Shown here: positions 14,788 to 23,829 of the stretch, piece after piece
Position numbering within the stretch: the first letter of the stretch is position 1
Layout: each line of letters begins with the position of its first letter
Source: a virus
IMG/VR virus record: IMGVR_UViG_3300032282_005140
Coordinates: 1 to 23,829 of that record
Strand: one strand, 5' to 3'
DNA length: 23,829 nt
Notes under the pieces: generated by a model
What the model saw: only the letters and a program-made list of their open reading frames with translations
Told to the model about the DNA's origin: nothing
Databases searched by the model: none
Program-made: the position numbers and the translations under genes

Positions 14788-14797
14788 ATTATTCCTC

Positions 14798-14956
14798 CTA
14801 GGATATAACGTTTGTTAGTACTGTAAAGCCAATCCATAGACCAATAATTCCTGCGACTCCCGCAAAAACTGGTGGTGCTGGTACTGGCAATTTGAATGCT
14901 GCGAATACTACGCCACATCCAAAACCTGTTATTGTTGATAGCATAATGTCTTTCAT
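14798..14956 (-). CDS. XapX (DUF1427) domain membrane protein
   Basis: 52 aa: two membrane segments with the family signature FKLPVPAPPVFAGVAGIIG in the middle (proline-rich hairpin) and G-x-x-x-G-F at the end. XapX proteins are small bacterial membrane proteins without a settled function. The start overlaps the stop of the previous gene (ATGA), and its TAG overlaps the ribosome site of the holin-like gene, so the two are closely coupled. It could be a second holin, an antiholin or a pinholin-type partner; that is inference. Confidence 0.7.
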   Translation of the reverse strand: MKDIMLSTITGFGCGVVFAAFKLPVPAPPVFAGVAGIIGLWIGFTVLTNVIS

Positions 14957-18229: not shown

Positions 18230-18253
18230 GGTTATCCTCCTAGGTATACTATG

Positions 18254-20773: not shown

Positions 20774-21190
20774 TTATTTAATGGTGATTGATTTAGGCTT
20801 TTTATCTTCAGGAACAATTCTCTCAACATTAATGTTAAGCATTCCATCATTCATTTTTGCCCCAGTTACTTCCATGTATTCGCCAAGAGCAAATGATCGT
20901 GTAAACTTACGACCCGCAATACCCTTGTGAACCACTTCAGCGTCTGTTACTTCAACAATTTCACCCTTAATAATTAGTGTGCCATTGTCCACCGACACAT
21001 CAATATCTTCTTTTCCAAAACCTGCTATAGCAATAGAAATTAAATATGTATCTTCATCTAGTTTAAGAAGATCATACGGAGGATATGATTGTGAATTGAT
21101 TTTGTGTGCATTATTTAAGCGACCCAACTCTCTGTTGAATCCAATAAAAAATGGATCATTAAATAGATCCAGTGTGAAGTTTGTTACCAT
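20774..21190 (-). CDS. Hsp20 small heat-shock protein
   Basis: 138 aa. ATP-independent chaperone that holds unfolding proteins. The alpha-crystallin domain spans about 38-125: YDLLKLDEDTYLISIAIAGF, DIDVSVDNGTLIIKG, and the closing G-M-L-N-I-N-V that replaces the common G-x-L-x-(I/V) motif. The C-terminal IT-I tail (KSITIK) supports oligomer contacts. T4-like and cyanophage genomes also carry Hsp20 genes, so a phage copy is not surprising. Its 5' leader can fold over the ribosome site (see the feature at 21192-21243). Confidence 0.9.
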   Translation of the reverse strand: MVTNFTLDLFNDPFFIGFNRELGRLNNAHKINSQSYPPYDLLKLDEDTYLISIAIAGFGKEDIDVSVDNGTLIIKGEIVEVTDAEVVHKGIAGRKFTRSFALGEYMEVTGAKMNDGMLNINVERIVPEDKKPKSITIK

Positions 21191-21191
21191 G

Positions 21192-21243
21192 TTATTCCCC
21201 TTTCAAGCGAATAAGTTAATGTGCTCCTCATTTGAGCAAGCAC
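21192..21243 (-). promoter_or_regulatory. Possible ROSE-like RNA thermometer in the Hsp20 leader
   Basis: Two hairpins in the leader. The upstream one (21243-21221) pairs GTGCT with AGCAC and CTC with GAG around an AAAT loop, and begins at the predicted transcript start. The downstream one (21214-21192) pairs TTATTC with GAATAA, then a G-G mismatch, then CTT with AGG around GAA, so it encloses the AAGGGG ribosome site. UCGCU opposite the ribosome site matches the UYGCU box known from ROSE elements of small heat-shock genes. Confidence 0.45.
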
Positions 21244-21249
21244 TAAATA

Positions 21250-21258
21250 ATTATATCA
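21250..21258 (-). promoter_or_regulatory. Extended -10 promoter for the Hsp20 gene
   Basis: On the - strand TGA then TATAAT (hexamer 21255-21250); predicted start at 21243, the first base of the upstream leader hairpin. It lies in the gap after the TauD-like gene. Confidence 0.55.
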
Positions 21259-21263
21259 TAAAA

Positions 21264-22100
21264 TTAATTTGGTATTAAAAATGTAAAGTCATTAAACTGG
21301 TGTCCCCAGATTCCAGTAAATTGTCTATCTTTGGGGTCAAAACCACCAGTTACTGCATGGGCAAGTTTAAACATGTCTGGAACAAAAAGATCGCCTTGTT
21401 CCCACCTATGAACAATCCTAATGTCTTCATTGTTTTTTACTTGATCTGAAAACCAAAAAGAAATTTCATTAAAGTTTTCAGTTTGTTCTTGAGTTGGCTC
21501 TTGGCCATCAAATAAAACTAATGCAGAAGGACTTTCTGAATCTTTTAAAACACGCATTCTAATTAAAGGATTTTCAGTAAGCCAGTGATTTTTAATTACA
21601 TTGTAGTCATACTTTACCATTGTAGAGTTACCATTTTTATTATCAAATTCTATAGTATTAGTTATGCACTTTGATAAAAAATGTTTCCAATCATCGGACA
21701 TAGTATTATAAACTTTTTCTGAATCAACAAAATAAGTTTTTCCGTTATCTGAGTCTGTTGTAAAAGTTGACATGTTCCAAGTTGAAGCAACAATTGGATT
21801 TTTGTAGTAAACATGCTCAATGTGCCATTTAAGCATTACGTCATCTTTTCCAGCAATATTAATTTCATCATTGTGTGAATGATTTTCTGTATAACTATAG
21901 AGTTTTTTGGCAGGTGATTCATTTGTATACCAACCAAAAAGATCACCTAAAGTTTTATGAAATGCTGAGTGTTCTTCACTGTTTAAGTTTGCATTTCTAA
22001 AAACTAAAAAAGAATTATTTATAAATTTATTTTTGTAGTAGTCAAAATTTTCTACTATTTCTTCTGTTCCTGGAAACATAATTGGTTCTGTATAGATCAT
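21264..22100 (-). CDS. TauD/TfdA-like 2-oxoglutarate dioxygenase
   Basis: 278 aa. The TauD clade uses Fe(II) and 2-oxoglutarate to oxidise small molecules. KWHIEHVYY supplies H93 and E95, an HxE instead of HxD. RWEQGDLFVPDMFKLAHAV supplies the typical W-x-x-G-D turn and the distal H248, and R259 is a candidate 2-oxoglutarate anchor. The N-terminal helix and FLVFRNANLN strand also fit. A TATAAT at 22134-22129 and AAAAGGAAAA ribosome site precede it. It is isolated from the five related genes in the left arm. Substrate unknown. Confidence 0.8.
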   Translation of the reverse strand: MIYTEPIMFPGTEEIVENFDYYKNKFINNSFLVFRNANLNSEEHSAFHKTLGDLFGWYTNESPAKKLYSYTENHSHNDEINIAGKDDVMLKWHIEHVYYKNPIVASTWNMSTFTTDSDNGKTYFVDSEKVYNTMSDDWKHFLSKCITNTIEFDNKNGNSTMVKYDYNVIKNHWLTENPLIRMRVLKDSESPSALVLFDGQEPTQEQTENFNEISFWFSDQVKNNEDIRIVHRWEQGDLFVPDMFKLAHAVTGGFDPKDRQFTGIWGHQFNDFTFLIPN

Positions 22101-22128
22101 TTATTATTTTCCTTTTCTTGATAATTTT

Positions 22129-22134
22129 ATTATA
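22129..22134 (-). promoter_or_regulatory. -10 box upstream of the TauD-like gene
   Basis: TATAAT on the - strand with a 21-nt leader containing AAAAGGAAAA before the ATG at 22100. No clear -35 box; the tRNA-Met gene lies just upstream. Confidence 0.4.
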
Positions 22135-22144
22135 CATCATGATT

Positions 22145-22221
22145 TGGTACACCAGATAGGACTTGAACCTATGATAACCGAATTATGAGTTCGGGGCCTT
22201 AACCAACTTGGCTACTGGTGT
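22145..22221 (-). tRNA. tRNA-Met (CAT)
   Basis: Acceptor ACACCAG/CTGGTGT, D stem GCC/GGC, anticodon stem CCGAA/TTCGG with loop CTCATAA (anticodon CAT), T stem ATAGG/CCTAT, and encoded CCA (22147-22145). The CAT anticodon could also be Ile2 after lysidine modification; elongator Met is the default call. Confidence 0.88.
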
Positions 22222-22222
22222 A

Positions 22223-22298
22223 TGGCTGGTCTGGCAGGTCACGATCCTGCGACTTCCGAATTAACAGTTCGGCACTCTACCAACTGAGTTACAGACCA
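22223..22298 (-). tRNA. tRNA-Asn (GTT)
   Basis: Acceptor TGGTCTG/CAGACCA, anticodon stem CCGAA/TTCGG with loop CTGTTAA (anticodon GTT), T stem GCAGG/CCTGC, discriminator G and encoded CCA. The T loop (ATCGTGA) departs from the usual TTCGAAT pattern. It lies 10 nt after the protease stop and 1 nt before tRNA-Met. Confidence 0.88.
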
Positions 22299-22308
22299 AA
22301 ACCTATTG

Positions 22309-23145
22309 TTATCCTACGTAAGGATAACTTTGTGCTTTAGGAAGAGAAGCAATATATTCACTCCAAGATCCAGAAGTTTTTCGTGTTACTGCCAATGTTG
22401 CTACAACTGGTGTTGCAACTGATGTTCCTGTAATTGTCATTGTCTTGCAACCACAATAACCCTTTACAGATGCATCGCCTCGCCCAACCATAGCAAGACC
22501 AGGACCTACGTTTGCATAAGATGCAAATGTTAGATCTGGCTTAAGTGCACTTACTGAAATTACTCCAGTTACACAGGAAGGAAATCCAATTTGATTTTTC
22601 TTTGCATCATTTCCAGTTGCAACAAATGTTGGAACATTTTGTACGTTTAATGATTTTACTGCATCAGAAAAAATTGTATCAGTTGGACATGTTCCAGCAG
22701 CAAAATTGCTTCTTGACTGACTAATTGATACGGCCTTAATATTAAGTCGTGATGAGTTAGCAGAAACCCAGTTCATTGCACGACTTACAGAACTTCCATC
22801 ATTATGCATTGCAGAGAACTTGGTGTATACATTTACATCCGAAATTCTTACAAAGACAATCTTAATATTTGGGTTTGCCAATACTGCTGCTTGTGCAATA
22901 TTAAAACCATGATCAATTCCATTAATCTTCCAATCATTGACCATTGCTGATCCTGGACCTTCTTGAAAATTAGTTCCATTTGGACAAGTATTTAGTGTAA
23001 AACATGCCTCATATACTACATTGCTATTCTTTGAAGCATCCATTGCTGTATCAATAATTGCAATTGTGTTTGTCTCTGCTGCCTGAACTGGTTGAACTAC
23101 AGCAAATCCAAGAATTACTGATAGTGTTAACGCTACCTTTTTCAT
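22309..23145 (-). CDS. Secreted subtilisin-like serine protease (S8)
   Basis: 278 aa. Residues 1-22 are a clean signal peptide (MKKVALTLSVILGFAVVQPV then QA). The mature part has all S8 catalytic positions: D32 in IAIIDTAMD, H79 in GIDHGFNIA, the oxyanion Asn N179 in ATGND, and S242 in GTSVATPVVA. There is no recognisable I9 propeptide, since the Asp motif follows the signal peptide almost directly. The start is fixed by AAAGGGGTAAAA just upstream. Possibly acts on host cell-surface or extracellular proteins. Confidence 0.85.
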   Translation of the reverse strand: MKKVALTLSVILGFAVVQPVQAAETNTIAIIDTAMDASKNSNVVYEACFTLNTCPNGTNFQEGPGSAMVNDWKINGIDHGFNIAQAAVLANPNIKIVFVRISDVNVYTKFSAMHNDGSSVSRAMNWVSANSSRLNIKAVSISQSRSNFAAGTCPTDTIFSDAVKSLNVQNVPTFVATGNDAKKNQIGFPSCVTGVISVSALKPDLTFASYANVGPGLAMVGRGDASVKGYCGCKTMTITGTSVATPVVATLAVTRKTSGSWSEYIASLPKAQSYPYVG

Positions 23146-23147
23146 TT

Positions 23148-23330
23148 TTACCCCTTTAGTTTGATTACTACTTGACATGGGTCGCCACCTGCTTCCCACT
23201 CTTCTTGCTCTTCTTCACTCATGTATGGATCACCATCATGAGTATTACAGAACGGTTCTGTTATCCAGCCCCGATCAATTCCATTATTTAACCAGATTTC
23301 AAACTCTAAACTATCTTCATCGTTAATCAT
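23148..23330 (-). CDS. Small acidic protein (60 aa)
   Basis: The pattern FCNTHDGDPYMSEEEQEEW followed by GGDPC is a familiar look for small actinophage proteins with no known role; two Cys and a His near Asp could bind metal. It starts at a leaderless promoter. Its stop sits in the ribosome site of the protease gene (2 nt before the protease ATG), so the two are translated as a pair. Confidence 0.65.
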   Translation of the reverse strand: MINDEDSLEFEIWLNNGIDRGWITEPFCNTHDGDPYMSEEEQEEWEAGGDPCQVVIKLKG

Positions 23331-23336
23331 ATATTA

Positions 23337-23365
23337 AGTATATCCTTAAACGCTTACTACGTCAA
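23337..23365 (-). promoter_or_regulatory. Sigma70-type promoter, leaderless, for gene 23330
   Basis: On the - strand TTGACG (23365-23360), 17-nt spacer, TATACT (23342-23337), ending 6 nt before the ATG at 23330. The -35 box and part of the spacer lie inside the end of the upstream peptidase gene. Confidence 0.72.
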
Positions 23366-23829
23366 CTGGACCCATGCATGAAGGGCTAAATTTAATTGCT
23401 GAATTGACTGCTCCTACTACACGCTTTCTTGCATCCCTTGTTTTTTCCGTGGCATTCATATAACCATATGCATACTCTGCACCTGAGCCCATAGAAAGAT
23501 AAGGAAGTGTATACTTAGACAAAGACATATCTGCAGAACTATGCTCATAAATATTTCCACGCACAGCAATAATCAAACCAAGGTCACCTTCTTTTGAAGT
23601 GTCTACCCAAAAATCATTATAAAATGAGCGAAGTTGTTTAATAAACTTTGTCTGCATAAACTTGTCTGTATCTTTAATGTCAGGTACATAGGGATTAAAG
23701 TTATAGCGAATTCGCTCACCATCCATAGAACCAGCATACCCAATTAGGTACGGGCCTAGTTTCCAAACCTTTGGACTAGATAGTGCTAGAATGGTGCCAT
23801 CATCTGATGCACCACGATCTCCTGCCATA
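23346..23829 (-). CDS. HslV/20S-proteasome-like peptidase, 5' end outside window
   Basis: Reads into the window from the right edge; 160 residues are visible, lacking the N-terminal Thr region. The visible start MAGDRGASDDGTI with SPKVWKLGPYLIGYAGS and the later MGSGAEYAYGYMNA are hallmarks of the N-terminal-nucleophile hydrolase family of HslV and proteasome beta subunits. Such proteins form ATP-dependent or self-compartmentalised peptidases. In phages they are candidates for prohead maturation proteases or host-protein control. The catalytic Thr cannot be checked here. Confidence 0.75.
   Translation of the reverse strand, partial: MAGDRGASDDGTILALSSPKVWKLGPYLIGYAGSMDGERIRYNFNPYVPDIKDTDKFMQTKFIKQLRSFYNDFWVDTSKEGDLGLIIAVRGNIYEHSSADMSLSKYTLPYLSMGSGAEYAYGYMNATEKTRDARKRVVGAVNSAIKFSPSCMGPVDVVSV

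Follow-up and report, generated by a model that had tools for sequence, protein, structure and literature searches.

A probable ROSE-like RNA thermometer in the leader of phage hsp20 genes

We analysed a 23,829-nucleotide stretch of viral DNA (IMG/VR record IMGVR_UViG_3300032282_005140, positions 1 to 23,829; hereafter the window) that encodes a small heat-shock protein, Hsp20, behind a short mRNA leader. The leader resembles the ROSE elements of bacteria and is likely to be an RNA thermometer. The window Hsp20 matches Pfam PF00011 (4.5e-17) and PHROG 432 (7.8e-37) in profile comparisons and is 38% identical to Escherichia coli IbpA and 41% identical to Pseudomonas aeruginosa IbpA. The locus comprises the following features.

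21250..21258, minus strand: extended -10 promoter TGATATAAT (from the sequence; the TGNTATAAT block is conserved in relatives).
21192..21244, minus strand: 53-nucleotide hsp20 5' leader, ROSE-like, with two hairpins (matched by covariance models R1 and R2).
21221..21243, minus strand: hairpin 1, GUGCUU[G]CUC-AAAU-GAGGAGCAC, with a bulged G at 21237 (predicted fold; paired changes in relatives).
21192..21214, minus strand: hairpin 2, UUAUUC[G]CUU-GAAA-GGGGAAUAA, covering the Shine-Dalgarno sequence, with G21208 bulged or opposed by a G (predicted fold; relatives).
21206..21210, minus strand: U(U/C)GCU anti-Shine-Dalgarno box, here UCGCU (parsed representatives).
21197..21203, minus strand: Shine-Dalgarno sequence AAAGGGG, predicted to be sequestered (sequence and opening cost; relatives have the variants GAAGGAGG and AAGGAG).
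20774..21190, minus strand: hsp20, encoding an IbpA-like small heat-shock protein of 138 amino acids (Pfam, PHROG and IbpA alignment).

The extended -10 promoter ends at 21250, so by standard -10 spacing the transcript should start at 21243-21244, at the foot of hairpin 1; the leader reads AGTGC... from 21244 on the minus strand. Hairpin 2 corresponds to UUAUUCGCUUGAAAGGGGAAUAA at 21214-21192, and the AUG is at 21190. In the minimum free energy fold of the leader both hairpins form, with z between -2.0 and -3.0 for the different stretches folded, and 2-10 of 200 dinucleotide shuffles folded equally well. In hairpin 2, UCGCU lies opposite the G-run with a G facing a G. An equivalent pairing leaves G21208 bulged and closes on a GAAA loop; comparison favours it because natural AGGAGG variants are able to form it. 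Hairpin 1 also contains a bulged G (21237), with UUGCU over AGGA. The window has a single copy of the 23-mer of hairpin 2, also when three mismatches are allowed (chance expectation 0.00). The first-pass annotation had proposed that the transcript begins exactly at a hairpin and that the last hairpin sequesters the ribosome site by pairing UCGCU with the G-run around a G-G mismatch. The predicted start agrees with the first proposal, and the second is confirmed alongside the bulged-G21208 pairing.

We assembled a first set of relatives by Hsp20 protein similarity alone. In this set, every readable leader has TGNTATAAT or something close to it, followed by a hairpin 1 that varies and by TTATTCGCTTGAAAGGGGAATAA or the variant GAAGGAGG. 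TGNTATAAT is the last conserved block 5' of the leader, and the set shares no common sequence upstream of the -10. In a larger relative set, every one of the 110 distinct readable relatives whose Hsp20 is at least 75% identical has hairpin 2 (identical or AGGAGG-type), as have many in the 40-75% range; this set includes loci from the element search, and its fractions below 75% identity are not unbiased. Scanning IMG/VR for the 23-mer returned 119 places, and in 117 of the 117 with a readable gene that gene is hsp20 (41-89% identity), the small heat-shock placement typical of ROSE elements. We rejected a general translation-enhancer leader on the basis of this exclusive association.

A search of 84,980 species genomes for the element gave two matches. 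One (L201) is a coincidence inside a rhodanese-coding sequence. The other (L202, CANGYR010000020.1) is on a contig binned as a Chitinophagaceae metagenome-assembled genome; it carries the element with a phage-type hsp20 and is probably phage DNA in the bin. At a further locus (L265), immediately 5' of hsp20, hairpin 2 is fused to the 5' part of an apparent tRNA gene (GTAGCTCAGCGGAAGAGC), which replaces the promoter and hairpin 1. This junction reflects either recombination or an assembly chimera.

More distant phages, including cyanophages, pelagiphages, a Methylophilales phage and rhizobial jumbo phages, retain the architecture of the leader but not its sequence. In their leaders one G bulges from the 5' hairpin (mostly as Y-G-C-Y), and a linker leads to a U(U/C)GCU:AGGAG pairing around a bulged G. 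Some of these leaders follow a T4-type late promoter TATAAATA instead of TATAAT. Hosts of phages with the element include Synechococcus, Prochlorococcus, Pelagibacter, a Methylophilales strain, Agrobacterium and Sinorhizobium, and the source environments are lakes, oceans and soil. Among 79 clustered representatives, one parser found hairpin 2 in 75 (14 of 1,580 shuffles) and both hairpins in 67 (0 of 1,580 shuffles). The box in the 75 parsed representatives is UCGCU in 57, UUGCU in 17 and UUGCC in one.

A looser parser identified both hairpins in 16 of 19 cultured or single-cell phages. It missed ACG-2014h, in which GUCGCUU..AAGGAC is present by eye, and the element is absent from the two Vibrio phages within this group. 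An unverified Pseudomonas phage Y7 record (L428, OQ572409.1, 592-658), left out of this count, contains a full bacterial ROSE_3 element and a P. aeruginosa-type ibpA, and may be host chromosomal DNA.

We built covariance model R1 from ten near-identical freshwater leaders that do not include the window leader. Across 77 loci, R1 matched no locus more than once, and its matches coincide with the hsp20 leader or lie close to it. The alignment of 51 sequences drawn from these matches has 96.3% standard pairs; both-side changes number 124 (31 in column shuffles), and the covariation score is 0.447 (0.162 in column shuffles). Both-side changes affect 8 of 8 pairs in hairpin 1 and 3 of 9 in hairpin 2. 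As judged from these alignments, the covariation points to an element that acts at the RNA level. Sequence-only MAFFT alignments of all leaders gave no consensus fold and displaced hairpin 1 at its bulge by a single base.

Model R2 was built from the 51-sequence alignment, in which the window leader is one row. The window leader matches R1 with 52.7 bits (E 2.9e-12) and R2 with 58.1 bits (E 1.1e-12), and it is the only R2 match in the window record at E<=1. At the same threshold the hsp20 leader is also the sole R2 match in S-CREM1, Marine virus AG-345-P14, Syn1, P-SSM4, S-CRM01, S-SKS1, Sf-FR1, HTVC115P, Mosig and C48C1. The first six of these ten contributed training rows to R2; the other four did not.

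The Rfam ROSE_3 model (RF02523), which was made from bacteria and has a curated cut-off of 43 bits, was searched against complete phage genomes. In four of them the top-scoring position coincides exactly with the leader of hsp20: Melnitz-3 (34.1 bits, E 1.6e-6), C48C1 (26.8 bits, 1.3e-4), Sf-FR1 (E 0.0055) and S-CREM1 (0.014). ROSE_3 also matches the hsp20 leader of a viral contig (L243) with 34.1 bits. Scanning the window with Rfam recovered only tRNAs at the gathering threshold, and only noise, preQ1-II and carA at E<=10. Neither R1 nor R2 matched the Pseudomonas ROSE_3 leader, so the model match is one-way.

Several structural features nevertheless connect the phage leaders to ROSE elements. 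The U(U/C)GCU box, imperfectly paired with the Shine-Dalgarno sequence around a bulged or mismatched G, is UCGCU or UUGCU in 74 of 75 representatives. ROSE elements have 2-4 hairpins in about 60-100 nucleotides; the window leader has two, and its 53 nucleotides are slightly under that range. The order characteristic of ROSE_3, a 5' hairpin with a single bulged G followed by a bulged-G Shine-Dalgarno hairpin, is present. A fourU thermometer was rejected, as four consecutive U opposite the Shine-Dalgarno sequence are not present and UCGCUU faces AAGGGG.

Opening the six-base Shine-Dalgarno core of the window leader is predicted to cost 10.6, 8.4, 6.4 and 5.5 kcal/mol at 10, 25, 37 and 42 C, compared with 10.7, 7.2, 4.7 and 3.9 kcal/mol for P. 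aeruginosa ROSE_3. In six freshwater relatives the predicted cost falls from 7.7-9.6 to 4.1-5.3 kcal/mol. By these calculations the window leader would be within the working range of the ROSE_3 class, though slightly stiffer at the higher temperatures. Base-pair probabilities for the window leader indicate little opening up to 55 C.

These comparisons extend and correct what had been proposed for the locus. The likeness of the box to the UYGCU of ROSE elements is borne out, with ROSE_3 matches in other phages that are weak but correctly placed. The first-pass annotation would have abandoned a thermometer if related phages lacked conserved pairing, and we found the opposite, strong conservation and covariation. 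The window leader is not an isolated case: many phages carry the element on hsp20, and what it most resembles is the two-hairpin ROSE_2/ROSE_3 type, not a single UYGCU hairpin. In the folding across temperatures that it called for, the predicted opening costs are in the ROSE_3 range, and hairpin 2 is predicted to stay mostly closed at 42-50 C.

We interpret the leader as a probable ROSE-like RNA thermometer, possibly with feedback by Hsp20; thermometer function is likely on the strength of homology of form. RNA polymerase would start from the extended -10, and the mRNA would open with hairpin 1, a stable hairpin that would nucleate the fold. At low temperature, pairing of U(U/C)GCU with the Shine-Dalgarno sequence around the bulged or mismatched G in hairpin 2 would block ribosomes. 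Warming, or another loosening event, would melt hairpin 2 first, freeing AAAGGGG and switching on Hsp20 synthesis. In tested Pseudomonas ibpA leaders, which have 61-62 nucleotides and two hairpins, hairpin II melts at 25-42 C and hairpin I stays closed (PMC3669281). By analogy, we expect the same division in the window leader. Melting near host temperature, a resulting change in translation and use during infection are likewise inferred.

Several observations weigh against a thermometer of the ROSE type. Nearest-neighbour folding predicts that hairpin 2 is mostly closed at 42-50 C, as it does for the ROSE_3 leader. Moderately costly Shine-Dalgarno sites also occur at other window genes, and fold energy alone is no proof. 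Because of the little predicted opening and these costly sites, we treat the thermodynamics as a consistency check only. The 51-sequence alignment was fitted to R1, which inflates its pair counts; the hairpin shuffle test is free of that bias. Hairpin 2 is nearly invariant in the clade of the window, so support for its pairing comes mainly from distant relatives. Finally, no genuine phage leader reaches the 43-bit ROSE_3 cut-off (the best scores 34.1), and the window has no ROSE_3 match even at E 10.

The leader could instead be a protein-bound translational operator, repressed by its own product until Hsp20 is titrated by aggregating proteins, with temperature secondary. E. coli IbpA binds its own mRNA leader and represses itself, and Arg93 is required (PMC10474464). 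GIAGRKF in the window Hsp20 aligns with IbpA GIAER93NF and keeps the equivalent of Arg93, and all 376 relatives with a readable motif have Arg at this position. This conservation speaks for such an operator, as do the similarity to IbpA and the sequence of hairpin 2, which is almost unchanged across the freshwater clade, more so than pairing alone requires; the conserved Arg may however be structural, and distant relatives vary the sequence but retain pairing and UYGCU, as expected of a fold-based device. We consider a primarily protein-controlled operator rather unlikely, although it may be compatible with a thermometer. Based on sequence and on the E. coli precedent, Hsp20 feedback released by aggregating proteins is a credible companion mechanism.

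An improbable alternative is a constitutive leader, in which hairpin 1 shields the 5' end of the mRNA and hairpin 2 does no more than hold translation at a low rate, with no useful temperature response. The predicted fold is largely closed over 5-55 C and jumps to 42 C are rare in lakes and oceans, as such a leader would have it, but this reading does not account for why the bulged G and UYGCU are conserved, why the element is tied exclusively to hsp20 and why it resembles ROSE_3. Control by RegA, a phage translational repressor whose gene is directly upstream of hsp20 in several cyanophages, is very improbable. A regA or 'translation repressor' gene adjoins hsp20 in S-CRM01, Sf-FR1, P-TIM68 and ACG-2014h, yet the element is found as well at loci whose upstream gene lacks a regA annotation, in jumbo phages and in the window, and it resembles bacterial ROSE elements, which have no RegA. 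We give almost no credence to a DNA-level control site, for which the model is a Pho box predicted over the motif in cyanophage S-PM2d: the predicted hsp20 site ATTCAAACTCGCTTAAATA spans CTCGCTT (PMC10976474), but covariation indicates RNA, and in the same study the site bound no PhoB and the gene was unresponsive to phosphate (PMC10976474, Table 2). A CTCGCTT RNA box offers a simpler reading of this putative Pho box.

Other parts of the window bear on its promoters, ribosome sites and gene content. The extended -10 TGNTATAAT occurs at seven window sites (162, 6789, 7426, 8090, 18254, 20711 and 21250; 2.9 expected), several shortly 5' of genes, which suggests that this phage depends on extended -10 promoters. 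Two other genes on the minus strand (14794-14802 and 18236-18244) have the identical context CCTAGGAGG at their Shine-Dalgarno sites, where 0.06 would be expected by chance across the window. A small CC-UAGGA-GG hairpin could form over the ribosome site there, and the 18236 site has a high predicted opening cost. The region beside hsp20, at 21264-23828, encodes a TauD-type dioxygenase, tRNAs Met and Asn, an HslV-like peptidase and a small protease with a subtilase domain, and may be a neighbourhood for protein quality control.

hsp20 is one of 25 cyanophage core genes (PMC3037559). If the leader is a thermometer, direct temperature control of a viral chaperone would be common in aquatic phages (cyanophages, pelagiphages and freshwater phages), linking infection outcome to warming. 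The element also offers an explanation for the false Pho-box prediction in S-PM2d, and it is amenable to tests in cultured phages such as Syn1, P-SSM4 and HTVC008M. Tentatively, and as a scenario that we rate short of probable, ancestors of Kyanoviridae and several other phage groups would have acquired an ibpA-like gene with its ROSE leader and retained the two as a unit; a large part of the aquatic virosphere would then carry a phage-run proteostasis sensor, with a leader opened by heat or by aggregating proteins (e.g. capsid intermediates), raising Hsp20 in infection.

Three phage thermometers are named in a 2024 paper: lambda cIII, SPbeta blyA (fourU) and the sigma-70 gene of a gut Caudoviricetes (fourU) (PMC11182007). 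Like the window leader, these are phage mRNA structures with temperature control of ribosome access. In contrast, they are isolated cases that belong to other structural classes and genes; no ROSE-like element is among them, and no phage heat-shock gene is controlled by one of them. We found no report of a ROSE element or thermometer in a phage hsp20 leader in the literature searched, where absence is no proof that the element has gone unnoticed. The abstract on the Synechocystis hsp17 thermometer similarly places a short Shine-Dalgarno-sequestering hairpin before the small heat-shock gene of an aquatic microbe (PMC4477652); two bulged-G hairpins and a UYGCU box are not described for hsp17 there.

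The closest counterparts are ROSE_3 and ROSE_2. ROSE_3 of Pseudomonas ibpA shares with the phage elements a leader of about 60 nucleotides with two hairpins, a free AUG and an ibpA-type gene downstream. Its 5' hairpin has a bulged G (GAUGCC..GGGUC), its 3' hairpin places U(U/C)GCU over AGGAG with a bulged G, and its predicted opening cost is similar. Unlike ROSE_3, the phage elements follow their own promoters, either extended -10 or T4-type late TATAAATA. In the window clade the Shine-Dalgarno sequence is AAAGGGG, U-G pairs take part, and the lower stem is rich in A-U. The window leader is thus a ROSE-like element by architecture and not an Rfam ROSE_3 member by score. ROSE_2 (RF01832) of E. 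coli ibpA has a hairpin with a one-base 5' bulge followed by CUCGCUGAUUUCAGGAG, close to the phage CUCGCUU..AAGGAG, but differs in its longer leader, in extra closing pairs around the last hairpin and in preceding a bacterial heat-shock gene. In both E. coli ROSE_2 and Pseudomonas ROSE_3, the hairpin preceding the Shine-Dalgarno hairpin has a one-base 5' bulge. The double-bulge layout is therefore a shared ROSE_2/ROSE_3 trait rather than a phage invention.
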